64,000 bases of DNA from Bifidobacterium tsurumiense. GTDB taxonomy: Bacteria > Actinomycetota > Actinomycetes > Actinomycetales > Bifidobacteriaceae. The position numbers and the translations under genes are program-made. Under the pieces are notes generated by a model. It worked only from the letters and a program-made list of their open reading frames with translations, was not told the DNA's origin and made no database searches. The stretch's first letter is position 1; each line of letters begins with the position of its first letter. The DNA is taken from NCBI RefSeq assembly GCF_000741765.1, contig NZ_JGZU01000004.1, forward strand, positions 1 through 64,000. Reading direction: 5' to 3'. Shown here piece after piece: positions 3,601 through 51,410 of the stretch.

Positions 3601-5232
3601 GAGGCGAGACACCATCACATTGTCAGGATTGGATACGAAGAATTCACGGGAGTAATCCACGCCATCATGGCGGAAAGAAACATGCGCTTTGCCTGTTGAA
3701 AGATCCAGATCACGAATGTAATTGTCGTAGGTTGCGTCGTTGCCGAAGCCATAGTCGATGGTGACATTGCCCCAGTTCTGGTATGCGCCCTGCTCATTGG
3801 CATTCTCCCCGCCGGTGAGGTTGCCGGGATTGACCGTTTCCTTACCGGATTCCAATTGCTTGTTAAGCTCTCGCAACGTTGCCCCGTCACGACCCTTGGA
3901 CTGGTTGTTACCACCGTTATATGTCGCAGTGCTGCCGGGACCACCTGTCCACAGGGTTTCTTCATTCAGGGTTATGCGTTCCGTACCCACTTCGCCCCAG
4001 ATCGTTCCGCCCAATTTTCCATTGCCTATGGGAAGCGTGGTCTGCTGCCACCTATTATTGTCTTCTTCCCTCACCGCTGCAGGTGCGCCTGAGCCCAGGC
4101 GCATATCGGTCTGAGAAGCCGGCTGGGCGTACCACATGCGGTCATCCGATGTGATATCTTCGCTATCTTCAGTCGACTCGTCGCCGGCGACATACACCAT
4201 AAATGTTGCGCTAATAGTCGGGTCATCGTTATCTTGCACGGTGATGGGGTGAGCGCCCACATCATTGGTGTCATAATCCGTCCCACTCAGTGTGTACTGA
4301 TCAGCGTTCAAAACGGTTTTCACCCCATCACTGGTGCTGACACGAGTAACAGTCAAGCCCTGAGATTGGAACGACTCCCCTTGACGATATCTTGTCTTCG
4401 TCGGGGCACCAATTTCCAAGGAGTAAGGCTTCGCCGCTTCTTGCACAATCAACTGAGGTGCCATTGAAGCTTCGGCACCGGAAAGGTTGGACGCACCTTC
4501 GGAGCTTGCGAACCGAACGTCGATATGTTTGCTTTCCCCCATTGCCAGGGTAAGGCTCTTGCGTCCTTGCTCCATCTGATTTTTGACTATGTCGGTCACA
4601 TCCACATCGACTGTAGTGGCTGATGACACGGTCATGTTGTCGCCGTATTTCGTCAAACCGACAATAAATTCATTGGATCGGGCCACCTGTCGTCCATCGG
4701 TGGCATCAAATCGAGGTCTGGTTCTCCATGTGGCAGTATTCGGCGCACATGAATCTGCATCATTGGTGCATTGGGTATCATCCACTGCAGTGATGACTAT
4801 GCTGTCCGTGCGTTGCTCATCCGTGCTGGTTCTGCCCGCATACCCCAAATACGACAGTCGCAATGTTGCTGAAACAGGTGTTGAATCGTAGCGAGACAGA
4901 TCAAAGGAGAGCAACCCCATCTTTGCGTCAGTACCGTCATTGGTATCGGTCGATTCGAACGCCTCCCCGAATTCGCCATATCCTTGAGGCTGCAGAGCAC
5001 CGATATATGACTTCGCAGCATTGTCTTGATTCTTTTCATTCTTCCATGACTGGAGAGTAGTATCCGCAGACACCAATATCGAAGAGGTATTCCCAACTAT
5101 TGTTTCGGTGTCAGCAGCACCGGCGACTGTCGCCGACGACAAGGTCACCGCAGCCAACATGCCTATTGAGGCACCGACTGCCACCCATGAACGGGCTATT
5201 GCAAATCCACCCGTCCCCGTAATCATTCTCAT
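607..5232 (-). CDS. afcA: wall-anchored GH95 1,2-alpha-L-fucosidase
   Basis: About 1541 residues. It is predicted to release terminal alpha-1,2-linked fucose from host H-antigen glycans or 2'-fucosyllactose at the cell surface, by inversion. Order: signal peptide (to about residue 40, AGAADTET), a carbohydrate-binding-like region with a DNRLRE-type look, an Ig-like domain near 285-365, the GH95 module from about 375 to 1200 beginning MWYAQPA, a Big_2 repeat, an acidic Gly/Asp/Asn-rich spacer, then a sortase-like LAATG with a hydrophobic helix and RRR tail. Catalytic candidates match the B. bifidum AfcA pattern: N769 and N771 (HMNVNLQMNYW), E916 (SPEHGP), D1108 (QIDGNFG), with similar spacing. 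ATG at 5232 was chosen because CAAGGA stands 8 bases upstream. The symbol is by similarity to the B. bifidum enzyme. The preceding gene on the same strand is another wall-anchored protein, 630 bases upstream. Confidence 0.92.
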   Translation of the reverse strand: MRMITGTGGFAIARSWVAVGASIGMLAAVTLSSATVAGAADTETIVGNTSSILVSADTTLQSWKNEKNQDNAAKSYIGALQPQGYGEFGEAFESTDTNDGTDAKMGLLSFDLSRYDSTPVSATLRLSYLGYAGRTSTDEQRTDSIVITAVDDTQCTNDADSCAPNTATWRTRPRFDATDGRQVARSNEFIVGLTKYGDNMTVSSATTVDVDVTDIVKNQMEQGRKSLTLAMGESKHIDVRFASSEGASNLSGAEASMAPQLIVQEAAKPYSLEIGAPTKTRYRQGESFQSQGLTVTRVSTSDGVKTVLNADQYTLSGTDYDTNDVGAHPITVQDNDDPTISATFMVYVAGDESTEDSEDITSDDRMWYAQPASQTDMRLGSGAPAAVREEDNNRWQQTTLPIGNGKLGGTIWGEVGTERITLNEETLWTGGPGSTATYNGGNNQSKGRDGATLRELNKQLESGKETVNPGNLTGGENANEQGAYQNWGNVTIDYGFGNDATYDNYIRDLDLSTGKAHVSFRHDGVDYSREFFVSNPDNVMVSRLAASDTGKLNLTIGLKTNASFSKTGEMSTVHGDTLTVKGALGNNGLVYNSQIKAVVDSGTVGVSADGTSLVVSDATVVTLYVAAATDYKEVYPQYRTGESADDVDARVGDVVQAAANKGYKSLNAAHVADHRGLYDRVHLDLGQAAAQASNELATDKLVEKYANGSASVAQQRLLETTVYQYGRYLTIGSSRENSQLPSNLQGIWSSISGDRAHGRAPWGSDFHMNVNLQMNYWPTYSGSMAQLAEPLIGYAKGLVEPGRVTAKTYAGASTAEGTPIGEGEGFMAHTENTAYGWTAPGFAFSWGWSPAAVPWLLQNVYEAYEYSGDLEQLRNDVYPLLKEESHFYVSYMLHKASALAADGSARLTTGVAYSPEHGPQGTDGNTYESSLVWQMLNDAIESAQALGVDEDLVGNLEGCSADNWATTDSGSFSVANANRSWSCAQSLLKPIEVGADGQIKEWYFEGKLGKKTDGSNIPGYEMRHRHMSHLLGLFPGDLITIDDPTFMDAAKVSMTNRGDDATGWGVGQRINAWARTGDGNHAYKLIKLQLSGAMYPNLFDVHPPFQIDGNFGNTSGVNEMLLQSNSTFTDTDGVQYANYTNILPALPDAWKQGSVDGLVARGNFTTSISWSEGSIDTVSLVSNKGNKAAVKLTEGDADSYEVKHDGEGVEYTVVSNSRGDKLITFDTTAGERYDIVKKSVPEKINVESVSVDGAAQITAGEDMTLTATVTPNDATNQEVTWSSSNEEIATVDANGKVHAVSAGQVIIFATSVDDPTTGGSMTITVTANHTDPDPQEPELEVKAIDASTVGYEYLRKELKPGEEIAFNEPQEVVGARSREVISVPSQGQVRLASVHYVASEDAQRGEDSFTVRYLLDDTHAVDVVYAPVVMIANEPGNTPDPSETPDEPSEGDGVNNGGGDDNGDNDGKDGGDVGNGSDANVDNEGRVSGSDRNLSHNEPKEKKVATQRRLAATGSEIASVVVLGIFALVAAILAMEWRRRQ

Positions 5233-5340
5233 ACTCTGGCTCCTTGAATGTGATGACGCCACGGGAATCCGCACCGCCAAGGATGCAACACTGCATCATC
5301 GTGTTCGCGGTCGTCATCGACCACCAACAATCAGAGTAAT

Positions 5341-5355
5341 GTTAGCACACCTAAC
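5341..5355. promoter_or_regulatory. candidate operator upstream of the fucosidase gene
   Basis: GTTAG-N5-CTAAC is a perfect interrupted palindrome about 110 bases upstream of the fucosidase start, in an AT-rich stretch that also holds the palindrome ACTTAAGT. It loosely recalls DtxR/IdeR boxes but the centre spacing does not match. The regulator is unknown. Confidence 0.35.
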
Positions 5356-5806
5356 TTAATGACTTAGAATGATTACTCGAGTGAACTTAAGTATTGAAAT
5401 CGGCAACTATCTTTGTTATTTCAGCGTTTTATGCAGTAAGCACCCGATAATTTACAAGCTTTTCCATTTGGATATTTTGATATCAATATGTGATATCAAG
5501 GGATTTGATTCACTTACCTTCCTATCACTTTGTCACTGTTCTTTCTGCATTGACAGTGCCTGAGCAGACGATTGTTCACCAGACTTCCGCGCACCGACTC
5601 GGCCAATCCAGAATTCGCAGCCCATCCATTCAACCATCCCTCCATCCAGCAAACCACCCCTCTATCCAGACTCATAGCAGTCTGAACATCCAGCGTCCCG
5701 GCTCCGACACAAGCAAACTACCTTTCCGTCCCTCATCACGAAAGCTTCTGTCTTGAGGTTTTGCCATCTCCGCCTAAAGCTGAAACTCAACCAATACATA
5801 CATAGA
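5356..5806. other. AT-rich intergenic stretch without a gene
   Basis: This lies between the fucosidase control region and the end of the next surface-protein gene. Open frames here (for example 5369-5563 and 5490-5756 on the plus strand) lack ribosome-binding sites and recognisable domains. Nothing further is seen apart from short C/T-rich runs near 5620-5700. Confidence 0.6.
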
Positions 5807-5845
5807 CAGTGCGCACGAATGGAAGCACAAATATTGCGCGCACTG
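5807..5845 (-). terminator. possible terminator of the surface-protein gene
   Basis: An 8-bp perfect stem (CAGTGCGC at 5807-5814 with GCGCACTG at 5838-5845) lies 18 bases past the minus-strand gene end. The loop is 23 bases and no clear U-tract follows, so termination efficiency is uncertain. Confidence 0.4.
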
Positions 5846-5862
5846 CCTAAAACCGCACAGCC

Positions 5863-8121
5863 TTACCGGCTCTTCAAGCTTTGCCTTCGTCGGAGCAGGC
5901 AATTGGCGGCAAGTCCCGTCCCGAGCGCGCCAAGACCGAGCACTAGCGGAAGAAACAGAGAAACTCCGGTTTTCGCCAAGGGGGCCGGCTCTTCTTTTTC
6001 TTCTTGTTCCTTCTCGTCAACCACGACCTGCTCCCCATCGACCCCGAGTTCATGATCGGCGAGCACATCACCCTCAGACGACCACAGCGTTGCCTTCCAA
6101 TACACAATCCCCGGTGAATCCGCTTGCACTTCGGGAGAGTCCACACGAGCCCGTCCACTAGTGCAATCAACATCCACCCTTGCCTCATCCAGCAACTTCT
6201 CATTCATTCCCGGAATCGCACCCTCCTCAACAGGTTGGTACGCGCTGAAGGTCACATACGAACCCGTGTCACATGACCCGGTAATCGTGGCCGTATCTTT
6301 GAAAGGCTCCCCCACAAACACTTTGTCCCGATTGACTTGCGTCACTATGCTCGGCTTTCGAGGTGACTCGACACCCACCACTCTGGTACGCTCCCAAGCA
6401 TCGTTATAGGCGCTGGAAGCCGGCATCACCCGGTCATCCCCTGCAAATTTCCATACGAACACATACCAACCGGGAGTTTCCGCCACAATATGCACGGGCT
6501 CTCCGGAAAGATCCGGCACACCTCCGCCCACTCGTATGACGCCGTTGACCGCAGCATAGCGCCACGTTCCCAAAAGGCGATGATGTTCGTCTTCCTGCGG
6601 CTCTTCGATGATTTCAGGTCGATACTTGGCATCATTGCTTGGGGCAGCAGCATCACCCGACCACCACACGCTTACTTGTGACTCAGCATTGTCTGCTTCA
6701 AATCCAAACCGCGCATCACCCAGGAATGAGCCATGGTCATCTGGAAAACCCGACACAGTAATGGTGTCGCTTAATTCAGAACCAACGACTGCACTGTGTT
6801 CGGTAACCGAGGAATAAACTTTCACCCTATTGCGATTGACATTGGTTTCCGAGACCTCCATCAGCGGACTCACCACATCCTTGAGCACATATTGCTTTGC
6901 CTGCTCACTGAGTCGTTCACGGTCAAAAGCCCAGACCCAGGTGCCGAAGCCTCCGGATTCCGGAGCACGATACACTTGTTTGCCATCCTGCTGAGTCGTT
7001 GCAGTCACTTCTACCCGTTGTCCAGGAGCCGTGAACGAAGCCCGACCATACGCCACCGGTCGATAGCCCATGCGTGTCAGCCTTTCCAAGAATGATTGAG
7101 CGCCTTCCCCCGAATTTGGCTCTACCGTCTCGCCCAATTGATGCCTGTCCAATGAGAAATACCAGCCATAGGCCTGCAATTCCAAACCAGGAACCCAATG
7201 ATCTTCAGCGCTTTGCACACCAGAGGTGACGGTGTCCACCACTTCCTCCTCAGCATCATTCACCACATCACGAACCGTTGTGCTCAGCGACGGTTGGAAA
7301 CTTTGCTTGACTGTCATGGTGAGAGCCTCACCACGCGCTTGCTCAGCGGTTGCCGGATGCGCCAAATCCTGGGGGCCCAATACGCGACCCATGGCCATGA
7401 TGTTGTAATCCACAGCAACATTGACCGTTCCATCCCCCGTTGCTTTCCACGAATGCTTGATCACATGATCTTGAGAAACACCGGAAATACGGGATTCGCC
7501 ATTCTCGAATTGCGCCGGCCCTTGCAAAGTCACCGAGTATTCAATGCCGCGTATGACATTTCCTGACGAATTCACCACCGAAACATCGATATTGCCTTCT
7601 CGCAAGCCCTGGGTGAAAGTACTTGAAACCCGACCCTGTGACGGAGCATGCTGCCCAGCCTCATGCCATAATCCATCAACCATTGTCGGCAATTGAGGAT
7701 GCGTCTGCACAATAACCGCCTTGTGCTGAGCCCACACACTGGGATTGGCATCAAAATGATCATGAGCCAAAATGCCAATGGCTGCATGTTTTGCCGGATC
7801 CTGATCGTGCTTGTATCGCTGCATAAGCCAAGCAATCCGCCGTGCAGCATCAGAATCGGGAATGCGCTCGTCGGCACCGTTCACATAGCTCACAGGACCG
7901 CCGGCCTCAACGCAATAGTAATTGTTCCCGTCATTGTCTTTGGCCAACACACCAATATGCAGCACCTCACCATTCACCCGATATTGCAAATACCAGCCGA
8001 TTGTCGGGGCATGAAGCGTCGCAGCCGAAGCCTGCGCAGGCAATATCGCCAAAGTCAGCATCGCTATGACAATAAGTGCTCCCAGCCGAGTTGCACGCTT
8101 GAAAAACCGTACGTCAGTCAT
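5863..8121 (-). CDS. wall-anchored multidomain surface protein
   Basis: About 752 residues, predicted exported and sortase-anchored. There is an N-terminal signal peptide (hydrophobic core LIVIAMLTLAIL, then AQASA), several beta-rich domains, a Lys/Glu-rich spacer (DEKEQEEKEEPAP), then an LPXTG-like LAKTG, a hydrophobic helix and an RRR-containing tail. The first domain has a conserved-looking YYCVEAGG and a later ILAHDHF, reminiscent of thioester-type adhesin domains, but I cannot place the partner glutamine, so this is tentative. Similar multidomain proteins in bifidobacteria are usually called adhesins. The start at 8121 (MTDVRFF) is chosen because GGAAGG ends 6 bases before it. The other ATG at 8127 abuts that site. 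The gene is divergent from glgE. Ligand and function are unknown. Confidence 0.75.
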   Translation of the reverse strand: MTDVRFFKRATRLGALIVIAMLTLAILPAQASAATLHAPTIGWYLQYRVNGEVLHIGVLAKDNDGNNYYCVEAGGPVSYVNGADERIPDSDAARRIAWLMQRYKHDQDPAKHAAIGILAHDHFDANPSVWAQHKAVIVQTHPQLPTMVDGLWHEAGQHAPSQGRVSSTFTQGLREGNIDVSVVNSSGNVIRGIEYSVTLQGPAQFENGESRISGVSQDHVIKHSWKATGDGTVNVAVDYNIMAMGRVLGPQDLAHPATAEQARGEALTMTVKQSFQPSLSTTVRDVVNDAEEEVVDTVTSGVQSAEDHWVPGLELQAYGWYFSLDRHQLGETVEPNSGEGAQSFLERLTRMGYRPVAYGRASFTAPGQRVEVTATTQQDGKQVYRAPESGGFGTWVWAFDRERLSEQAKQYVLKDVVSPLMEVSETNVNRNRVKVYSSVTEHSAVVGSELSDTITVSGFPDDHGSFLGDARFGFEADNAESQVSVWWSGDAAAPSNDAKYRPEIIEEPQEDEHHRLLGTWRYAAVNGVIRVGGGVPDLSGEPVHIVAETPGWYVFVWKFAGDDRVMPASSAYNDAWERTRVVGVESPRKPSIVTQVNRDKVFVGEPFKDTATITGSCDTGSYVTFSAYQPVEEGAIPGMNEKLLDEARVDVDCTSGRARVDSPEVQADSPGIVYWKATLWSSEGDVLADHELGVDGEQVVVDEKEQEEKEEPAPLAKTGVSLFLPLVLGLGALGTGLAANCLLRRRQSLKSR

Positions 8122-33168: not shown

Positions 33169-34515
33169 TCAGTTGGTCTCACCCGCAGACTGCACTTCCG
33201 GGGCAGTCAACTCCTTGACATCAGCTTTGTCCGAATCGATTATTTCCAATGGTTCGATAACTTTGTTCTGGTCGATTTTCTGCAGTTTTCTCGCTGTTAC
33301 CAATACACGTGATTCAAGCGAAGAGGCAAAGGCATTGTATGAGGCGACCGTGCGCGTGATCGCAGAACCCAGCTTCTGGGCTTTGTCTCCCAGCACCGCA
33401 AAGCGTTCATACAATTCTCGAGACAGATCGAAGAGTTGTTTGGCGTCATCGGTCAGACTCTGCTGTTGCCAAGCATAGGCCACGGATTTCAGCACAGCCC
33501 ATAGGGTTACGGGCGACGTCAGAGCGACTTTCTTGGAAAAAGCGTCATCCATAAGTGCAGGATCAGTTTCCATGGCAGCTTGCAGCAGTGCTTCGTTTGG
33601 AATGAACGCCACCACGAAGTCAGGAGCCGTGTCGAATGCGTTCCAGTATGCCTTGTCGCCCAATACTTTGACATGATCACGCAATGCCTTGGCATGCGAT
33701 TTCAACAATTGCGAACGCCTGGCGAGCTCCTCCTCGGAGGCGGTATCAGGAATGGCACAAGCCCGCTGATAATCCGCATAGGGCGCTTTCGCGTCAATAG
33801 GAATGGATTTTCCTCCCGGCAGATGAACCACCATATCCGGCCTCTGCGTGCGTCCGTTGTCATCCTCCACGACAACCTGTGTGTCAAAATCGACATGTTC
33901 CAGAAGCCCTGCGGACTCGACAATGTTTTTCAGCTGAGCTTCCCCCCAAGCCCCGCGAATGGTGTTATTGCGCAAAGCCGCCGATAATGAACTTGTCTCT
34001 TTGTCGAGCCTCGATTGCTGCTCGCCCAACCCTTTGAGCTGCTCGCCCAAAGCGCCCATCTCCTGTTTACGACCCTCTTCAATTTGCGTGACTTTGTGTT
34101 GCAGGGCATCCAGATTCTTCTGAACCGGAGCCAACGCTTCCAATACCTTGCTTTGCTCAGCCATGGTTTTGGCGTCCTCATGTCGCCTACGCTCTGCCTC
34201 AGCCTCCGCACGTTCTCTTTCTCGCTGCAAACGCAGCTGTTCCGCTTGTTGCGACTGGGCGAGCTGTGACTTCACGAATGCCAATTGCTGACCCAAACCA
34301 TCGCTTTGAGCCCTGCTTTCCGCATGCGCCGCCGCAAGATCTGCAAGCTGTTGCCGCAAATCATCACGTTGAGCGGTCAGTTCTTCCAAATCGGCATTCT
34401 TTACCGACCGCGCCAATTCCTGACCCTTGGCCTTGCCGAGGAGAAAGCCGATTGCGCACCCCAACGCTGCGATAACTATCAATATGAATATGCCAACAGC
34501 CACATTATCGAACAT
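33169..34515 (-). CDS. rmuC: DNA recombination protein RmuC
   Basis: 448 residues. RmuC limits inversions at short repeats and is thought to be a membrane-tethered nuclease-like factor. One N-terminal helix (VAVGIFILIVIAALGCAIGFLLG) is followed by a long coiled coil (about residues 35-150, repeated Gln/Glu/Arg heptads), then the RmuC domain: NNTIRGAWGEAQLKNIVES, GRTQRPDMVVHLPGGKSIP, IDAKAPYADYQRA and the PDFVVAFIPNEALLQAAM core. The downstream helical tail is normal. Monocistronic, 110 bases from csoR. Confidence 0.93.
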   Translation of the reverse strand: MFDNVAVGIFILIVIAALGCAIGFLLGKAKGQELARSVKNADLEELTAQRDDLRQQLADLAAAHAESRAQSDGLGQQLAFVKSQLAQSQQAEQLRLQRERERAEAEAERRRHEDAKTMAEQSKVLEALAPVQKNLDALQHKVTQIEEGRKQEMGALGEQLKGLGEQQSRLDKETSSLSAALRNNTIRGAWGEAQLKNIVESAGLLEHVDFDTQVVVEDDNGRTQRPDMVVHLPGGKSIPIDAKAPYADYQRACAIPDTASEEELARRSQLLKSHAKALRDHVKVLGDKAYWNAFDTAPDFVVAFIPNEALLQAAMETDPALMDDAFSKKVALTSPVTLWAVLKSVAYAWQQQSLTDDAKQLFDLSRELYERFAVLGDKAQKLGSAITRTVASYNAFASSLESRVLVTARKLQKIDQNKVIEPLEIIDSDKADVKELTAPEVQSAGETN

Positions 34516-34625: not shown

Positions 34626-34907
34626 TTACGACTTCACCAAGCGAGCGATCGCAGCTGACGCCTCGGCAACTTTCTCGTCGGCAACATCTCCGCCTTGCTC
34701 AACCGCCTGCTTAATGCAATGCTGCAGATGATCATCGAGCAATATCTGCGCAACCGATTTCAGAGCAGAAGTGGATGCGGAGATTTGCGTGAGCACATCG
34801 ATGCAATACGCATCATCCTCCACCATTTGCGACAAGGCTCGAACCTGGCCTTCGACCCGCTTCAATCTCGCCACGACCTTGGCCTTGTCTGCACTATATC
34901 CCTGCAT
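34626..34907 (-). CDS. csoR: CsoR-family copper-sensing repressor
   Basis: About 93 residues, all helical (DUF156). Cu(I) binding releases the repressor from DNA. The ligand set is visible: Cys in DAYCIDVLTQ, then His and Cys in LLDDHLQHCI, matching the C-H-C triad of CsoR. ATG 34907 is used, with AAAGGA about 7 bases upstream. It is divergent from the copper ATPase, with a palindromic operator between them, so it most likely represses both that gene and itself. Cu(I) rather than Ni or formaldehyde is inferred from the ligands and the neighbour. Confidence 0.92.
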   Translation of the reverse strand: MQGYSADKAKVVARLKRVEGQVRALSQMVEDDAYCIDVLTQISASTSALKSVAQILLDDHLQHCIKQAVEQGGDVADEKVAEASAAIARLVKS

Positions 34908-34989
34908 AACCAATCCTTTCTTGCACTTTCGGCGTTTCCATACTGCACCAACGACATAAGTTATGCTGAATGGTTAAATTATATACCCA

Positions 34990-35006
34990 ATACCCCCATG
35001 GGGTAT
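34990..35006. promoter_or_regulatory. CsoR operator in the divergent csoR/copA control region
   Basis: ATACCCC-CAT-GGGGTAT is a perfect palindrome with a G-tract/A-T flank pattern typical of CsoR sites, plus an extra half-site TATACCC at 34983-34989. It lies 83 bases upstream of csoR and 71 bases upstream of copA. Confidence 0.8.
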
Positions 35007-35077
35007 ATTATGAAGCCGTCAACGAAATCAGGAACGTTCCAACGGGAACGCAATACAGCGAGAATAAGGAGCATGAT

Positions 35078-37756
35078 ATGACACCTCAGGTTTTGGTCGT
35101 CATAGCAACATTCGTCATCGCTGCCGTACTGACTTGGGCGATACTTGCCTTCTTTTTCGGCAAGCAGCGTCAAACTTCAGGAACTATGCACGACGGTATG
35201 CAAACAGCAACCATCACGGTTAAGGGAGGGTATTCGCCGGCAAATATTGCCATACAGGCCGGGGTTCCCACCACTTTGACCTTCGACCGCCAAGAAGAGG
35301 GCGAATGCACTTCTCATGTCGTCTTTTCGGACCTTGGCTTGGACACATTCCTCCCGGGACACGAACGCACGGATGTGAACCTCCCTGCACTGGAACCGGG
35401 AATGTATTCCTTCGCTTGCGGAATGAATATGGTGCACGGTTCGGTGACTGTGCTTCCAGCCGATCAGAATGCACAGCAAACAACTACGAATACGTCAGAA
35501 CGATCCGCGCAAGTCGCCGCAAAGCAGCATCACACGAACGACTCCACCAAGACAACCACCTCACACGCATCCGCCACAGCAACTCTCGGCAGCAACGCCC
35601 TGAATAGTGAGCAACGAGCCAGTGAAGAACGCCGCAAAGAGATAGCACAACTGACCCGACTGGTCATCGTAGGAGCCATTTTCACCCTGCCGGTATTCGT
35701 GGCAACCATGCTTCATATGGTGAATCACACGTGGGTCCCCGCATGGATGGTGAATCCTTGGTTGCAAGCGGTATTGATAACACCTGTGATGTTCTACTCC
35801 GGCGCACCGATTCATCGAGTCGGATGGCCGGCTCTGCTTCACCGCTCCCCCGACATGAATTCTCTTGTCGCATTGGGTTCAACAGCAGCATATGTCTACA
35901 GTCTGTTGATCTGCATCGCACCAAATATCATGCCGGCCGGTTCGCGTAAGCCTTACTTCGAATCGGTAGGCGTTATCATCACGCTGGTCCTGCTGGGTCG
36001 ACTGTTGGAAAGCCGCGCTCGCGAAGGCACCGGAAAAGCGGTGCAATCACTAATCAAGCTTCGCCCTCGTACGGCACATACCATTGACCAGAACACTCTG
36101 GATCAGGGACAGCAAGCTTGGTCCAATCCGAACAATGCACGCGATATCGATATCGATCAGCTCACATCGGGTGCCATTATTGTGGTTCGCGCAGGCGAGC
36201 GCATCCCCACCGACGGCATCGTGTTGGCAGGTAGCGCCCATATTGACGAGTCGATGATTACCGGTGAATCACGGCCTGTTCAGCGCACCACTGCAGAAAC
36301 CGTCACGGGAGCAACCATTCTGCTCGACGGTGCCTTGGCCGTGCAAGCGACGCATGTTGGAGAGGACACTGTGTTGGCACAGATCATCACCATGGTGTCC
36401 AAAGCACAGGCAACCAAGGCTCCTGTCCAGCAACTTGCCGACAAGATTTCTCGCATCTTTGTGCCAGTGGTGTTTGTCATTGCAGTCTGGACTTTTGCGG
36501 TCTGGTTTGCACTCGGCCCAGATCCTCGACTTGCACATGCCTTGGTTACTGCGGTGAGCGTATTGATCATTGCCTGCCCTTGCGCCCTTGGTTTGGCCAC
36601 CCCTCTTTCAGTGACTGCGGCTATGGGTATCGGAGCTACCAATGGCGTATTGGTCACTTCGGCCAAGGCACTCGAACAGGCACGTCATATTCGCACTGTG
36701 GTCTTTGATAAGACCGGCACCATAACGCGCGGCGTTATTGATGCGAATGCCGATTTCTCCAAGCCATCGTATGACGACGATCCCATTAAAGAAGGCTCCA
36801 AGGAGGCCATTGCCGCCTTGCATCAGGCCGGTGTTCGCACGGTTATGTTAAGCGGCGACAAGGCCGAAGTCGCAGAGCGAATTGCGACTGAAGTCGGCAT
36901 CGATACGGTGATCGCTCAGGTGAAACCGGATGGCAAGGCGTACTGGATCGAACGGCTCCAAAACGAACGCGATCAGAGACATGCCGAAAATGAACTGGTC
37001 GCCATGGTCGGCGATGGCATCAATGATGCTCCCGCTCTTGCACAGGCGGATTTGGGATTGGCCATAGGAACAGGAACCGATGTGGCGATGCAATCCGCTG
37101 ACGTTACTTTGATGAGCGGCGATCTTCGCGGGGTGCTGCGCACTATCAACCTCTCCCATGCAACCATGCGCAATGTTCGCGAAAATCTGATTTGGGCGCT
37201 TGGATACAACGTCATCGGCATCCCAGTGGCAGCAGGCCTTCTCTATCCGTTCACCGGATGGCTCCTCAGCCCGATGATCGCCGGAGCTGCGATGGCATTG
37301 TCTTCTGTCTGCCTGGTATTGAACGCCAATCGTCTGCACCGTGCACGTATCAGCGGCGAAACCGTGAGCACGACCTCCGGCAGGAATCATGAGGCAGGAG
37401 GCAGTGACGGACTGCACCACGAAGCCTCGACTGGCAAACCGCGTGTCATAATCGACACCCGCATCTCGCAGGACAGCACCGAATCATCGCATGGCAGCAT
37501 GCCTCACACCGCATCCAACGGCGTTGAGCACAGCCATCACACCACCCATGAAGATCATCATCACAATCACAAGGAGCACAATATGAATATGGAATCATCC
37601 ACTGATGCGTCCACCGCAATCGATCCGGTTTGCGGAATGTCCGTGAGCGTGGGCGAAGGCACACTCTCCAAGGAATTTGACGGCAAAACATATTATTTCT
37701 GCAGCGAACACTGCGCTTCCTCATTTGAGAAGGAACCACACAACTTCGTACACTGA
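35078..37756 (+). CDS. copA: copper P1B-ATPase fused to cupredoxin and YHS domains, nucleotide-binding domain apparently missing
   Basis: 892 residues from ATG 35078 (AAGGAG upstream; the longer frame from 34970 would start upstream of the operator). Order: one membrane helix (4-26), cupredoxin-like domain (about 45-126) with C77, H80, H95, C114, M116, M118 and H120, then the P-type core: membrane helices, actuator TGES (T395), copper site C500-P-C502, phosphorylation D544 in DKTGT, GDGIND (D646), final helices, a His-rich linker and a YHS metal-binding domain (about 847-892, DPVCGMSV...YYFCSEHC). Only about 100 residues separate DKTGT from GDGIND; CopA-type pumps normally have about 200, including the HP-containing nucleotide-binding domain. 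No SEHP or CGVG-like motif is present. Unless ATP is bound in another way, the pump may be inactive. It is controlled by CsoR. Confidence 0.85.
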   Translation: MTPQVLVVIATFVIAAVLTWAILAFFFGKQRQTSGTMHDGMQTATITVKGGYSPANIAIQAGVPTTLTFDRQEEGECTSHVVFSDLGLDTFLPGHERTDVNLPALEPGMYSFACGMNMVHGSVTVLPADQNAQQTTTNTSERSAQVAAKQHHTNDSTKTTTSHASATATLGSNALNSEQRASEERRKEIAQLTRLVIVGAIFTLPVFVATMLHMVNHTWVPAWMVNPWLQAVLITPVMFYSGAPIHRVGWPALLHRSPDMNSLVALGSTAAYVYSLLICIAPNIMPAGSRKPYFESVGVIITLVLLGRLLESRAREGTGKAVQSLIKLRPRTAHTIDQNTLDQGQQAWSNPNNARDIDIDQLTSGAIIVVRAGERIPTDGIVLAGSAHIDESMITGESRPVQRTTAETVTGATILLDGALAVQATHVGEDTVLAQIITMVSKAQATKAPVQQLADKISRIFVPVVFVIAVWTFAVWFALGPDPRLAHALVTAVSVLIIACPCALGLATPLSVTAAMGIGATNGVLVTSAKALEQARHIRTVVFDKTGTITRGVIDANADFSKPSYDDDPIKEGSKEAIAALHQAGVRTVMLSGDKAEVAERIATEVGIDTVIAQVKPDGKAYWIERLQNERDQRHAENELVAMVGDGINDAPALAQADLGLAIGTGTDVAMQSADVTLMSGDLRGVLRTINLSHATMRNVRENLIWALGYNVIGIPVAAGLLYPFTGWLLSPMIAGAAMALSSVCLVLNANRLHRARISGETVSTTSGRNHEAGGSDGLHHEASTGKPRVIIDTRISQDSTESSHGSMPHTASNGVEHSHHTTHEDHHHNHKEHNMNMESSTDASTAIDPVCGMSVSVGEGTLSKEFDGKTYYFCSEHCASSFEKEPHNFVH

Positions 37757-38006: not shown

Positions 38007-40631
38007 TCACTCAGAGGATTCACCCTCTTGTCCGATCACGCTGAGCTTCAGATGTTCATCGCCGACATGGTCAGCCAGCACGCGGTCACCATCATGCACT
38101 GTTCCTGCCAGCAGCATGCGGGCTAGTTGATCGCCGACCTCGGTTTGCACCAGTCGACGCAACGGACGCGCACCGTATGCCGGATCGAATCCCATATCCG
38201 CAAGCCATTCGCGTGCCGCCGCGCTGACATCCAAGCGAATGCGACGTTCGGAAAGGCGGGCAGCCACTTGTGCCACCTGAATATCCACGATGCCGCCCAG
38301 CTCTTCTCTTGTGAGAGGATGGAATATCACCAACTCATCAAGACGGTTGATGAACTCCGGCTTGAACTGCATATGGACCGCATTCATCACGGCATTGCGC
38401 TTGGCGTTCTCGTCCAGTTCAGGCTGCACCAAGAATTGTGAGCCCAGATTCGAAGTCATGATCAAGATCGTGTTTCTGAAGTCCACGGTCCGTCCCTGAC
38501 CATCCGTCAAACGACCATCGTCAAGCACCTGCAGGAGCACGTCAAATACTTCAGGATGAGCCTTTTCCACCTCATCGAAAAGCACCACCGAATACGGGCG
38601 ACGACGCACGGCTTCAGTAAGCTGGCCGCCTTCCTCATATCCGATATATCCAGGAGCAGCACCGATGAGGCGACTCACGGATGCCTTGTCCATGTATTCG
38701 CTCATATCGATGCGCACCATGGCCTTCTCATCATCAAAGAGGAAGTCTGCCAAGGCCTTCGCCAATTCGGTCTTTCCGACACCGGTTGGTCCGAGGAACA
38801 GGAAAGAACCCGTTGGCCTATTTGGATCGGAAATGCCGGCCCTTGAACGACGCACTGCATCCGAAACGGCACGAATTGCTTCCTTCTGGCCAATAACGCG
38901 ATGAGAGAGATACTCCTCCATGTGGAGCAGCTTCTCATTCTCACCTTGCATCAAGCGTCCAACAGGAATGCCTGTCCAATCCGCCACAATTTCCGCGACG
39001 GAATCGGCATCCACATGGTCAGGAACCATGGGCTCACTCTGGACGGAACGACCGGACTGCTCATCCTCAGCGCTTTGCTCTGCAAGCGCCAATTCACGTT
39101 GGATTGCCGGAATTTCGCCATAGAGAATGCGGCTTGCTTGCTCAAGATTTCCTTCGCGAGTGAACTTATCTGCCTCAACGCGCTTGGCATCCAATTGCGC
39201 ACGCAAATCGCCGACCTTGTTATGTCCGGCCTTCTCGGCATCCCAACGGGACTTCAAGCCACTCAAGCGTTCACGAGTATTGGCAAGATCAGACTGCAAC
39301 TTCTCCAGACGCTCTTTGGACGCAGGATCCTCAGCCTTGCTCAGCTGCATTTCCTCCATTTCCAGTCGCGTCACCTTGCGCTGCAATTCATCGATTTCCT
39401 CTGGCTGTGAATCAAGCTCCATGCGAAGATGCGCCGCTGCCTCATCAACCAAGTCAATTGCCTTGTCAGGCAGCTGACGACCGCTGATATAACGGTTCGA
39501 CAAAGTCGCCGCCGCAACCAGGGCATCGTCACCTATGGTGACCTTGTGATGCGCCTCATACCGCTGCTTCAAACCACGCAAAATGGCGATAGTGTCCTCA
39601 ACGCTTGGCTCACCGACGAATACCTGCTGGAATCGACGTTCCAAAGCGGGGTCCTTCTCGATGTTTTCGCGATACTCATCCAGCGTGGTCGCACCAATAA
39701 GACGGAGTTCACCGCGAGCCAGCATAGGCTTGAGCATATTGCCGGCATCCATGGATCCCTCGGCAGCGCCAGCTCCCACAATCGTGTGAATCTCGTCGAT
39801 GAAGGTGATGACCTGGCCTTCGGCACTGCGGATTTCATTGAGCACTGACTTCAGACGCTCCTCGAACTCACCGCGATATTTCGAACCAGCGACCATCGAG
39901 CCCAAATCAAGGCTTATCAACTTCTTATTCTGCAGGGTCGTGGGAACGTCGCCTGCAACGATTCGTTGAGCCAATCCTTCAACCACCGCAGTCTTACCGA
40001 CACCAGGTTCGCCAATCAGCACCGGGTTGTTCTTCGTACGACGGCTCAGGATCTGGATAACCCTACGGATTTCACGATCTCGGCCGATTACCGGGTCAAG
40101 CTTGCCTTCCTTTGCAGCGGCTGTGAGGTCGGTGGAATACTTTTCCAAAGCCTTGTAACTGCCTTCTGCATCAGGACTCGTGACTTTTGCGCCGCCTCTG
40201 ATCTCAGGCACGGCCTTGCGCAAAGCTTTGGCCGTCACGCCGTTGGCTTCGAGTATTTCAGCACCCTGATTCGGCTTGCTGGCTGCGATGCCGATCAGCA
40301 GATGCTCTGTGGAGACGTATTCGTCGCCCATTTCCTGCATCTCTTTTTCAGCTTGAGCCAAAGCGGTTGACAATTGCCGACTGGCTTGGGGCTGTGCAGT
40401 GGTCGAACCACTGGCGCTAGGCAATGCCACCAATGCATTGCGCACCGCAGCACCTATCTGCTGCGCGTCTCCCCCAGCTGCCTGAATCAGTCCTGCTATG
40501 ACACCATTTTCCTGGCGCAGCATTGCATCCAAGACATGCAGGGTTTCAACCTGAGCATTCCCTGCGGCGGATGCACTTTGAATTGCATCTCCAAGAGCTG
40601 TTTGCGCCATGGTGGTGAAACGTTGTTCCAT
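38007..40631 (-). CDS. clpB: ATP-dependent disaggregase ClpB
   Basis: 874 residues, full length. A hexameric AAA+ chaperone that works with DnaK to dissolve aggregates. It has the N-terminal Clp repeat domain ([22 protein letters not shown]), NBD1 with Walker [14 protein letters not shown] and Walker [16 protein letters not shown], the middle coiled-coil domain (about 410-530, [20 protein letters not shown]) that sets it apart from ClpA/C, NBD2 with Walker [14 protein letters not shown] and [12 protein letters not shown], and a C-terminal D2-small domain ending in an acidic tail. A HAIR operator lies 116-136 bases upstream, so HspR control is expected. Confidence 0.98.
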
Positions 40632-47387: not shown

Positions 47388-50300
47388 TCACTTTGTCTTA
47401 CGACGCAGAGTCATCAAAACGATGCCTCCAGCAACAGTGGCCAAAGCCACGAGCACCACAAACGCCCCGTTTGCGCCCGTTGAGGCAAGAGCACTTACAC
47501 GGCGTTTCACCGCTTCCTTGCCGCCCTTGTCGCTTTCAGACGTGTTGCCTTGGTCGCTATCGGCTGTTTCGGACTTGTGGTCTCCGTTGTCGGATTGTTC
47601 TCCACTCTCCTCTTCATGAGCGATGATGGTGATAGCGCTTTCAACACTTGCTTCACCACTACGTGCAACCACAGCATGCGCGCCAAGCGCATAGTCCGCA
47701 GGAACTGTCCACTCAGTCGATGCGACGCCCTGTTCATCTGCTGCGACAGTAGGCAGCGTAACCACATCGGAATGGATTTCGAACGTGACTTCAGCGTTAG
47801 GAGTTACGCCACTCAAACGAAGCTTCACTACCTGACCGCGCTTGAATTCCGTCGCAGCATTATTCTCGCTTTCCAGAATCTCCAAGGTCAACGCATGGTC
47901 TTCACCTGGATTAGCCGGATCTGTAGGGCCAGTCGGATCAACCGGTTCTGTCGGATCGGTAGGACCTGTCGGATTGGTCGGATCCGTAGGATCAGTAGGG
48001 CCTGTGGGCTCAGTCGGATCCACCGGATCAACTGGGTCCACCGGTTCGGTTGGGTCAGTGGGCTCCTCGGGATCGGTTGGATCAGTAGGTTCAGTCGGCT
48101 CTTCTGGATCCGTAGGGTCAACAGGGTCAGTCGGCTCTTCTGGATCTTCTGGCATCACCACATTGCGGATCTCGGAATCCGACATCGTCGCCCACCGATA
48201 TACCTTCTGCTGAACACCATCAGGCGCCGTGCCCCAAATATCCATCACATTGATGCCACGAGTAACCGGCACGGTGATCTTCCCGGTTTCTGACGATTCG
48301 ATCCAAGACCCGTTGAGCCGCGCACGAACCATTGCACCATCGGCAGCAGCCACCGGAGTGATCGAGAACTCTGTAATCGATGGATCCAACATGCCCACAA
48401 ATGCCGTTTGTCTAGAAAGATCAGCATCGGCGGAACCGAAATCTGCACCTCAACAACGGCACTTGAAAGATTCGCATTTCTGCCGGATGCTTCCCGATCG
48501 ACCTCTTCAAGGCTTTCTTCGGCCCACGCAACCTGAGCGGCATCCGGAGCTTGGCCGCCCACGAGCGCCACGCCACGATCTCCAACCTTCAAATCGCTGA
48601 ATCGATATGTCGGTGGATTCTGATTGGAACCGCGGTGGCCCGTTGCCATCAGCACAACGCGACCGGCATCGGCAATCGCCGGGATGTTCACCGGGCTGCC
48701 GATATCCTGGAACGTAGCTCCATCTTGAGACCACGAAGCTTGCATGCCCTGATCACCGCGTGAAAGGCGGAGCCAGATCGCCTGAGCATCAGGACCGCTC
48801 ACCTTTCGGCTTTCTTCAGGGCTTGCATTCCGCTCGGTGACCACTGTGATTGTTGGCCTGCCGTTATTATGTTTGCGTTGCGATGCGATGTAATTATCGT
48901 CATCGGCATACAACAGCATGCCGACCTCTTCGTAGAAGTCCTGAGTCTTTCCTTCCATACGAACCGTCACGGACTCCCCTTGCGCCAAGGAAACATTACG
49001 CACAGCCTGCAGGTTATTCGGGGGCGTGCTTCGAGCCCATAATGAGGTGTTCGATGCGGAACGGACCACCAATGCATCACCGTCAGTCCAGGAATCCTGT
49101 GTCGGGCGAATGGCATCTATCGGATTGGTTGGAACGTCATTACCCGATTCCGTGATGGTCACTGCAACCGGATCGCCAACAATGATTCCGTTACCGGTAT
49201 CGTAAATCGGACGAACCGCTACTGTACCTGCAGCGAGCGCTTGCAGTACGCCTTCTTCCGAAATGCTGGCTAAGGAGGGATCAGAAAGCACCCAGCGCAC
49301 ACTGTTGTTGGCATCGGCTGGATGATCACCGTTGACTACGAGACTATCTTCTGCATTCACTGTTGCGTCATCAGAATTGTTCGTGCGCACCACTCGGTTC
49401 AAACCGGCATCATGTGCGTTGTCGCTGAATGTGATGTTCCGAGAGCCCTGTAACGTGAACAATGTGCGCGATCCTTGTGTTCCCTGATCTGTGACTTTCA
49501 GTGTGGTGGAGGAGCCCACCGGCATGGTCTCCAAGGACGCTGTGGTCGTTAATGAGGAAGAAGCGTCATACTTGCGGTTCATGTTATTCGAGAATGTGGT
49601 ATCCGCAACGTTTTTTGCGGTCAATATGCTTGCCTGGCCAATCGGGAAGGTGTTGTTTTCGATGGTCACATTATGATGCTCCGCTTGAGCCGGATCGTTG
49701 CCATCGGCTGTGGGGTCAAACCAAATGGTAGGCATGGGATTGCCGGCATAATAGCTAGGGCGGATGAATGTGTTGCCTCGGATGGTGATATCGCGGCTCA
49801 TCGAGGATTCGAGCCAACTATTGGAATCGCCTGAAATATAAATGGAAGATATCCACATATTGTCAAAGACATTATCTTCAATCAGCACTTTGCCGCGTGT
49901 GGTCACTAGCAGGCCTCGCGTAGGGATTGATTCGAAATGATTGTCACGCACTACGACCTCTGGCTGATGAGTCAGATTGTCAGCAGCAACATTATTGATC
50001 TGCGCATCCTCAGGTAGATCACGATCGAAGGTGACAGTGATATCGGTAAGGCTGCGATTGTGTGAACGTTCATCCGGACCATCCACCGACACGACCTTGC
50101 TCTGCCATCCCGTATCAAGCATCGTGGAACGATCCACCAGAGCCACTTCGTCACTGGGATAGAGCTGCGGGAATCCAGCGGTTTCGTTGTGCTTGTATGA
50201 GGAAGTCGCGGTATTGCCGTTTTTGGTTGTCATTACCAAATACGTTCCGTGAATATTGATCGGATCATCGTGAACATAACCGAAATTGCAGGTTTCAATG

Positions 50301-51410
50301 GTCACTTTGCCCTTGTTGCCGGAGACCTGCACCAGATCGGCAAATGCGGCGGTGGTTCTCCATGAATCTGCCGGAGCGCGGAAATTTACGCCGCTCAAGG
50401 TCAGTCCATCACTTAAACTGCGAGACCAAGCCAAATCCGTGCTGATAACCCACATCGACATTGCTCAGAGTCGTGTTCTTTGACTGCCAGATGAAGAATC
50501 CAGGGGTATCGCGAGTGGTTGTGCGAATCTGATACGAGGTGCCAAGTTCAGCAGGTGTTGTTGAACCTGCGGCATAAGTGACGCGCACATGACCCGGTGA
50601 GGTTATGGCGACGTCACTGGCTTGACGGAATGGAATGGCTGTATTCCTCGCGGAACTTCTGGTATTACTGCCGTTGGCGACACTATATGTCTGACCTATG
50701 AAACTGGTCCTGCCGCTGCGTAAATCATCGTATGTCCAATATGGCGTGCCTGTCACTGGGCTGTTTTCAGAAGATACGGTGAATTTGCCTCCATCCGTGG
50801 ATAGCTGATATCCATCAGGAATGCGGAGATCCTGCCATTGCGTGCCATCTTCGTTGGTTCCCTTGCCGACTATCGTTATGTCGACAACGCGAGGGGTGGT
50901 CCAATCAGTGGAAAAGTTCTGCATCTGGACACTGCTGGAATCGATGACTGCGAGCGTGGTTTGCTGACCATGGAGTTGAAAATGCGATCCTTGACCATCC
51001 ACAATCACGTCAGAAACACCTTCCAGCAATATGGCAATGGTCTTGTCTTTGTATCGTCGGTCTGCACCGACAGTATTGGACACATAGAGTTCACGTACTT
51101 CCGCGGATTCAGGATAGAGCTGGTAGGTGCCTTGGGGGAACACCAGTCGCGATGGTGTACCGGCGTCAGACAATGTCTTGACTTCGGCTATGGCGGACTT
51201 CACTGCCTGAGCCGAATCCTTAACACCTTGAGGATCTGCACCAAAGTTGACGACATTTACCACTGATCGCTGTGCGTCATCCTGCGCATTGGCCGATAGT
51301 CCGTCTGCAGCCAATGCCATATGCGTGACAGGCACCATGGCAAGACTGACGAACATCGCTGCGACACCCAATAGGCGCCTAGCCACCCTATGAGGGACAG
51401 GCGATGCCAT
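47388..51410 (-). pseudogene. wall-anchored GH110 alpha-1,3-galactosidase gene broken by two frameshifts
   Basis: Three consecutive frames together spell one protein of about 1340 residues. Part 1 (51410-50409): signal peptide, then VVNFGADPQG, LVFPQGTYQLYPESAEVREL, YVSNTVGA and a beta-helix, as in bifidobacterial AgaBb. It stops early after GYQHGFGLVSQ at a TTT run (50415-50417) where one extra base shifts the frame. Part 2 continues LSDGLTLSGVNF with many beta-helix repeats and a LamG/CBM-like domain. Near 48436-48450 one base is missing and part 3 resumes with DADLSRQTAFVGMLDPS. It then has a Pro/Thr/Glu/Asp repeat stalk, an Ig-like domain and LASTG sortase signal with a membrane helix. 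Intact, it would cut alpha-1,3-galactose from blood group B glycans. ATG 51410 has AAAGGAA upstream. Confidence 0.85.
47898..48152 (-). repeat. short tandem coding repeats (Pro-x-Asp/Glu wall stalk)
   Basis: About 85 codons of PTDP, PEEP, PVDP and PTEP units read on the minus strand (GGATCAGTAGG-like 9-base units). The stretch encodes a Pro-rich spacer that lifts the catalytic part off the wall; such arrays expand and contract by slippage. Confidence 0.85.

Follow-up and report, generated by a model that had tools for sequence, protein, structure and literature searches.

A copper-ATPase homolog of Bifidobacteriaceae that has lost its nucleotide-binding domain and may be phosphorylated by acetyl phosphate

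In all P-type pumps characterised so far, to our knowledge, transport is coupled to ATP that is held by a nucleotide-binding (N) domain. For the sarcoplasmic reticulum (SR) Ca2+-ATPase, acetyl phosphate is reported to drive Ca2+ transport as ATP does (PMC7961605), and hydrolysis of acetyl phosphate and pNPP is described as possible for the FITC-blocked H,K-ATPase, whose N-domain site is blocked (PMC4215238). CopA of Streptococcus pneumoniae is described as a copper-exporting P1B ATPase with a cupredoxin-like N-terminal site (PMC7558416). In this study, we analyzed a stretch of 64,000 nucleotides from Bifidobacterium tsurumiense (here called the window) and closely examined a gene for a copper-pump homolog without an N domain. 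The genome holding the window comprises 2.16 Mb in 25 contigs. We refer to forms of the pump gene without the N domain as N-less and to forms with the N domain and an SEHP motif as N+. In the titles and abstract openings of the open-licence PMC literature, no N-domain-less, catalytically conserved P1B family was recognised.

The features of the locus are listed in Table 1. Since the open reading frame starts at 34970, upstream of a palindrome, the ATG at 35078 is the better start. Pfam assigned Cupredoxin_1 (residues 21-125), E1-E2_ATPase (343-520), Hydrolase (565-658) and YHS (848-892) to the 892-aa protein and no HMA domain; the NCBIfam model TIGR01511 matched in two stretches with 522.2 bits (cut-off 397). 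The parts follow each other in the order anchor helix, cupredoxin, copper-pump core and YHS. The anchored cupredoxin, the P1B core motifs and the C-terminal YHS domain of the original prediction were thus all recovered, by Pfam, by a match to pneumococcal CupA and as an anchor helix in an AF2 model. A FACGMNM stretch with the Cys and Met ligands of the cupredoxin is common to CupA and the 892-aa protein (E 1.7e-17). The likeness to CupA that had been seen in the fusion therefore stands; its novelty does not, since 4f2f is itself a domain of a cation-transporting ATPase, and pneumococcus already provides an example of a copper ATPase with a cupredoxin. Y710, N711, M739, S742 and S743 are invariant in an alignment of 25 sequences, and the protein contains YN in M5 and MxxSS in M6, which we take to be motifs of P1B-1 Cu(I) ATPases (CopA).

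Table 1. Features of the N-less pump locus (window positions)
Feature	Position	Strand	Basis
rmuC, left border of the slot	33169..34515	-	PF02646
CsoR-type metal-sensitive repressor gene	34626..34913	-	PF02583, E 9.4e-29
Palindrome ATTATATACCCAAT-N6-ATGGGGTATATTAT, inner ATACCCC/GGGGTAT	34978..35011		inverted repeats I1, I4
Ribosome-binding site AAGGAG, precedes ATG 35078	35066..35071	+	sequence
N-domain-less CPC-type copper P-type ATPase homolog, 892 aa	35078..37756	+	uninterrupted frame, domain profiles, CopA alignment
N-terminal anchor helix, residues 3-27	35084..35158	+	helix in AF2 model
CupA-like cupredoxin domain with ECTSH and ACGMNM, residues 36-126	35183..35455	+	CupA 1.7e-17, 4f2f 2.8e-12
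TGES, A-domain dephosphorylation motif	36260..36271	+	kept in 56/56 N-less
CPC copper site, residues 500-502	36575..36583	+	kept in 56/56 N-less
DKTGT phosphorylation motif, residues 544-548	36707..36721	+	kept in 56/56 N-less
Short linker at N-domain gap, residues 554-567	36737..36778	+	CopA 436-551 unmatched; SEHP 0/56
SGD, residues 592-594, T to S typical of N-less clade	36851..36859	+	S 56/56 N-less, T 54/54 N+
Lys620 to Trp623	36935..36946	+	K620 56/56, W623 56/56 N-less
GDGIND, residues 645-650	37010..37027	+	G, D, G, N, D 56/56; I 55/56
YHS domain, C-terminal	37619..37753	+	PF04945, 4.2e-13
clpB, right border of the slot	38007..40631	-	ClpB_D2-small and other Clp domains

Alignment with CopA of Legionella pneumophila (3rfu) paired residues 182-553 with CopA 71-435 and residues 567-756 with CopA 552-734, and CopA residues 436-551 (116 residues, the N domain) have no counterpart. 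The starts of DKTGT (544) and GDGIND (645) are 101 residues apart, a distance that is 195-299 in relatives' N+ pumps; this bears out the short link originally noted between the two motifs. In a set made up of the query and 120 homologs among the matches listed (121 sequences; 7993 scored), the spacing was 97-131 residues in all 120 measurable sequences. Together with the open frame, this agrees with the proposed clean in-frame absence. Across the 56 N-less sequences described below, SEHP is missing throughout and the spacing reaches from 97 to 223, the larger values being due to insertions in the loop before GDGIND in some of them. In L077, L078, L079 and L068, the loop that corresponds to residues 628-640 of the 892-aa protein (window 36959-36997) holds long, variable and partly repetitive insertions.

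The absence of the N domain is real, in frame and conserved. A recent deletion, or bases missing from one assembly only, had been considered at the outset; the probability of an assembly error or private deletion is now practically nil, as the form is shared by 56 genomes from four genera, whose genes group in one clade and mostly have the same neighbours, and as all 120 measurable sequences have the short spacing. An assembly error is ruled out.

The N-less form was found in 56 of 189 Bifidobacteriaceae genomes, counting one genome per distinct sequence. Within the genus, 98 of 112 genomes gave a match at E<=1e-60, of which 47 were N-less and 51 N+ with SEHP; 50 of these N+ forms were read as genes, and that of G060, split over contigs, was judged from its matches. 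Three N+ genes (G082, G090, G092) have stops inside the match. The family survey of 189 genomes added nine further N-less genes in genera g3, g11 and g15, and the N-less sequences include proteins named B. longum (P0106, P0111). None of the 112 genus genomes carried both forms at E<=1e-60, with up to eight candidates scored per genome and a limit below which weaker N+ pumps could fall, while 21.4 such genomes would be expected under independence, kinship ignored.

A FastTree phylogeny of the core regions (113 sequences, 552 columns) placed all 56 N-less sequences in one clade together with the dead homolog L143 (support 0.87); its sister group is formed by the N+ bifidobacterial pumps. Outside the family, the survey covered Actinomycetota in overlapping samples. 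No N-less form was present among the matches listed for the order (396 genomes, E limit 1e-26) and the phylum (386 genomes, E limit 1e-27), or in the class sample (394 genomes, E limit 1e-30). Six genomes outside the family with hits into or near the DKTGT part (G458, G254, G511, G1057, G1066, G1152) proved to have N domains. Among the best 5000 plasmid records, 111 cover at least 80% of the query; two of these 111 were examined, and the N domain is present in both.

Loss of the domain is accompanied by strict conservation of the remaining machinery. TGES, CPC, DKTGT, SGD, Lys620 and the G, D, G, N and D of GDGIND are invariant in the 56 distinct N-less sequences, and the cupredoxin motifs ECTSH (56/56) and ACGMNM (55/56) are nearly as constant; SEHP occurs in none of them and in all 54 N+ sequences. 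Changes specific to the N-less clade cluster in the P domain. The residue after the SGD/TGD motif is Lys or Arg in 52 of 56 N-less sequences and Asn in 49 of 54 N+ sequences, and position 623 is always Trp in the former, the four commonest residues in the latter being E, V, I and R (52/54). The median pairwise dN/dS of the P domain is 0.18 (776 related pairs), the lowest of five regions, followed by the cupredoxin (0.19), the first membrane part (0.20), YHS (0.21) and the A domain (0.32); these values come from at most 777 pairs, which are not independent.

An AF2 model of middling quality, built with 25 sequences, reached a mean pLDDT of 63.7, with mostly 75-87 in the A and P domains and about 57 in the TGES block. 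Its predicted P domain covers 128/128 residues of the CopA P domain 2voy_I at 1.3 A and fits only 161/273 residues of the CopA P+N structure 3a1c_B, and its predicted A domain covers 113/113 residues of 2hc8 at 1.9 A, in a fold search that compares folds only and excludes no family. An intact P-domain fold and the retained phosphate-handling residues are what would be expected of a copper pump that is still driven by ATP, with the P domain alone binding the triphosphate weakly and millimolar cellular ATP being enough. We regard this as unlikely, as the N domain and SEHP are gone and the junction is a short linker with no replacement domain.

The N-less gene lies between rmuC and clpB, and this slot is informative in genomes of both kinds. 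We located rmuC in 98 of the 112 genus genomes and read the slot in 37 genomes with an N+ pump (35 N+ genomes as well as L061 and L062, which come from genomes matching G023 and G092). A shortened relative occupies it in 32 of these 37, and the other five slots hold none; a slot remnant is also present in one of five genomes that gave no copper-pump match at E<=1e-60. Most of the genomes read thus show a decayed slot copy if they have an N+ pump and a strictly conserved one if they lack it. This pattern is our main reason for thinking that the N-less protein does the pump's work.

The remnants differ in how much they retain. L143, from a family mate, carries at 4734-6854 between rmuC and clpB an intact frame for a P1B pseudo-pump of 706 aa in which DKTGT, TGES, TGD and GDGIND are all altered and CPC is kept; no cupredoxin or YHS part was seen in it, and its genome also has an N+ pump. 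Across 28 remnant open frames (L143, L061 and L062 included), DKTGT, TGES and GDGxND are found in none and CPC is missing in 23, and all 28 score higher with N-less proteins than with N+ ones. The majority consist of membrane parts alone, with CPC and more retained in L061, L199, L201 and L205. Frames in the dN/dS set of 31 are 281-480 aa long, 30 of them under 430. A database search with a stub returned 18 proteins, query included; the 14 with a source name all come from Bifidobacterium, 12 of them are called hypothetical protein, and none has a Pfam domain. As a separate observation, the stubs L062:5803-6858, L167-L191 and others keep the MB/M1-M2 platform region, most of them without the A, P and N domains and CPC.

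That shorter same-slot relatives keep open frames after losing their A and P domains or catalytic motifs indicates that the lineage can persist without catalysis. It lends some weight to a protein that burns no fuel at all, a copper chaperone, sensor or gated conduit in the shape of a pump, phosphorylated at most by inorganic phosphate. A chaperone or sensor had been among the original suggestions, and for the 892-aa protein it now appears unlikely: the catalytic residues are invariant in all 56 sequences, none of the 47 N-less genus genomes has an N+ pump at the limit given above, and decay of the slot is seen where an N+ pump exists (32/37 read) and in one of five genomes with neither form. 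Moreover, the remnant core evolves faster (median dN/dS 0.47, 253 pairs) than the N-less P domain, although the regions compared differ.

The surroundings of the gene match the layout of a CsoR-controlled copper operon, with a csoR gene and an ATACCC/GGGTAT palindrome adjoining it as a putative regulatory pair. The palindrome lies between csoR and the pump gene and is presumably of the CsoR operator type (ATACCCC/GGGGTAT). The pattern TACCC-N3-9-GGGTA precedes 35 of 56 N-less genes; random windows drawn from these loci contain it in 49 of 1120 cases. For the N+ genes the corresponding figures are 14 of 53 and 40 of 1080. Near the 56 N-less genes we counted rmuC in 48 cases, csoR in 40, clpB in 27, all three in 15, and rmuC or trmH in 54, in fetched stretches of which many are short. 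N+ genes sit away from the slot in most genomes and near rmuC in four (G006, G030, G046, G060). Elsewhere in the window, positions 47388-48398 (minus strand) encode a surface-type protein that carries a long DPTDPEEPT-like repeat and ends in a C-terminal membrane anchor; this frame overlaps the open reading frame 48245-50461 on the same strand in another frame, and the two are perhaps one gene split by a frameshift.

The window genome has five PF00122 matches, among which the 892-aa protein is the sole CPC pump. Its second P1B pump, on contig C8, carries CPHAL and a complete N domain with SEHPLA and 195 residues from DKTGT to GDGIND. Such a CPH-type pump might supply its N domain in trans within a mixed dimer, a very unlikely arrangement on the evidence at hand. 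An N+ N-domain query matched only the CPH pump and no free N domain in this genome (E<=1), and 40 of the 47 N-less genus genomes give a single P-domain-fragment match (E<=1e-25), which means that at this limit most of them lack a close partner pump.

Among the original suggestions, a pump that uses ATP differently fits best, given the invariant catalytic residues and the lack of genus genomes with both forms (E<=1e-60). We propose, at a probability of about 40%, that the protein is a copper-ATPase homolog which has cleanly lost its N domain, likely exports Cu(I) and is probably phosphorylated on its Asp by acetyl phosphate instead of N-domain-bound ATP. The proposal of an acetyl-phosphate-driven pump arises from three points taken together: the phosphate-transfer parts are kept without the N domain, other pumps accept acetyl phosphate, and the family has phosphoketolase. 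Cu(I) would pass from the CupA-like cupredoxin, which helix parity would place in the cytosol, to the membrane platform. Asp544 would be phosphorylated by a small acyl phosphate, for which an adenine pocket is unnecessary and in whose binding Lys/Arg595, Lys620 and Trp623 might take part, roles guessed from conservation. The usual E1P-E2P switch would then move copper out, and TGES would clear the phosphate.

Bifidobacterial fermentation is described as running via phosphoketolase, and XFPK as yielding acetyl phosphate (PMC5315409). Of the 189 family genomes, 179 have phosphoketolase, among them the window genome and all 161 with a completeness of 90% or more and a contamination of 5% or less; the ten without a match are all less than 90% complete, and two of them are N-less (G097, G172). 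As the enzyme is equally common in N+ genomes, its link to the fuel is permissive rather than diagnostic. Some findings count against the preferred reading: csoR stands beside only 40 and the palindrome before only 35 of the 56 N-less genes, shorter relatives without catalysis persist in the slot, and the window genome retains a second P1B pump, the CPH pump, with an N domain. More tentatively still, this may be the first natural P-type pump run on acetyl phosphate instead of ATP. Bifidobacteriaceae would have discarded the N domain because their phosphoketolase pathway provides an abundance of a small, energy-rich phosphate usable by a bare P domain, and the slot would show a stepwise stripping that begins with the N domain, continues with cupredoxin and YHS and then takes the A and P domains, until a membrane stub is left.

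An N-less family with all phosphoenzyme residues would offer a direct test of whether pumping needs an N domain and of whether metabolism can swap the fuel of a pump, and common gut bifidobacteria are among its carriers. With its graded remnants, the slot is also an unusual record of the dismantling of a large transporter. P-type ATPases of B. longum are reported to be induced by oxygen or peroxide and are discussed there in terms of Mn2+ uptake (PMC10530004, PMC6244367); one of them could be the N-less copper gene.

Among known systems, P1B-1 CopA of L. pneumophila (3rfu) and Archaeoglobus fulgidus (3a1c/2voy) shares with the N-less protein CPC, TGE, DKTGT, GDG-ND, YN in M5, MxxSS in M6 and the P-domain fold, but has in addition the N domain (CopA 436-551) and SEHP; no HMA domain was found by Pfam in the N-less protein. 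Judged by the N domain, the 892-aa protein is not a full P1B-1 member, although the remaining features that were compared are like those of one. The pneumococcal CopA/CupA pair (4f2f, 4f2e/2mry) has the same type of N-terminal cupredoxin, which, as described for CopA, sits on its own ATPase. The N+ CPC pumps of other bifidobacteria (e.g., L091, L144) share the CPC core, with ECSSH in 34/54 and a YHS-type motif in 49/54; they differ in having a complete N domain with SEHP, in their genome position in most cases, in ECSSH instead of ECTSH, and in TGD followed by N where the N-less proteins have SGD followed mostly by K or R. Finally, the SR Ca2+-ATPase and the gastric H,K-ATPase are described as using a small acyl phosphate in vitro, as proposed here for the N-less pump, but both keep the N domain and have ATP as their natural fuel.
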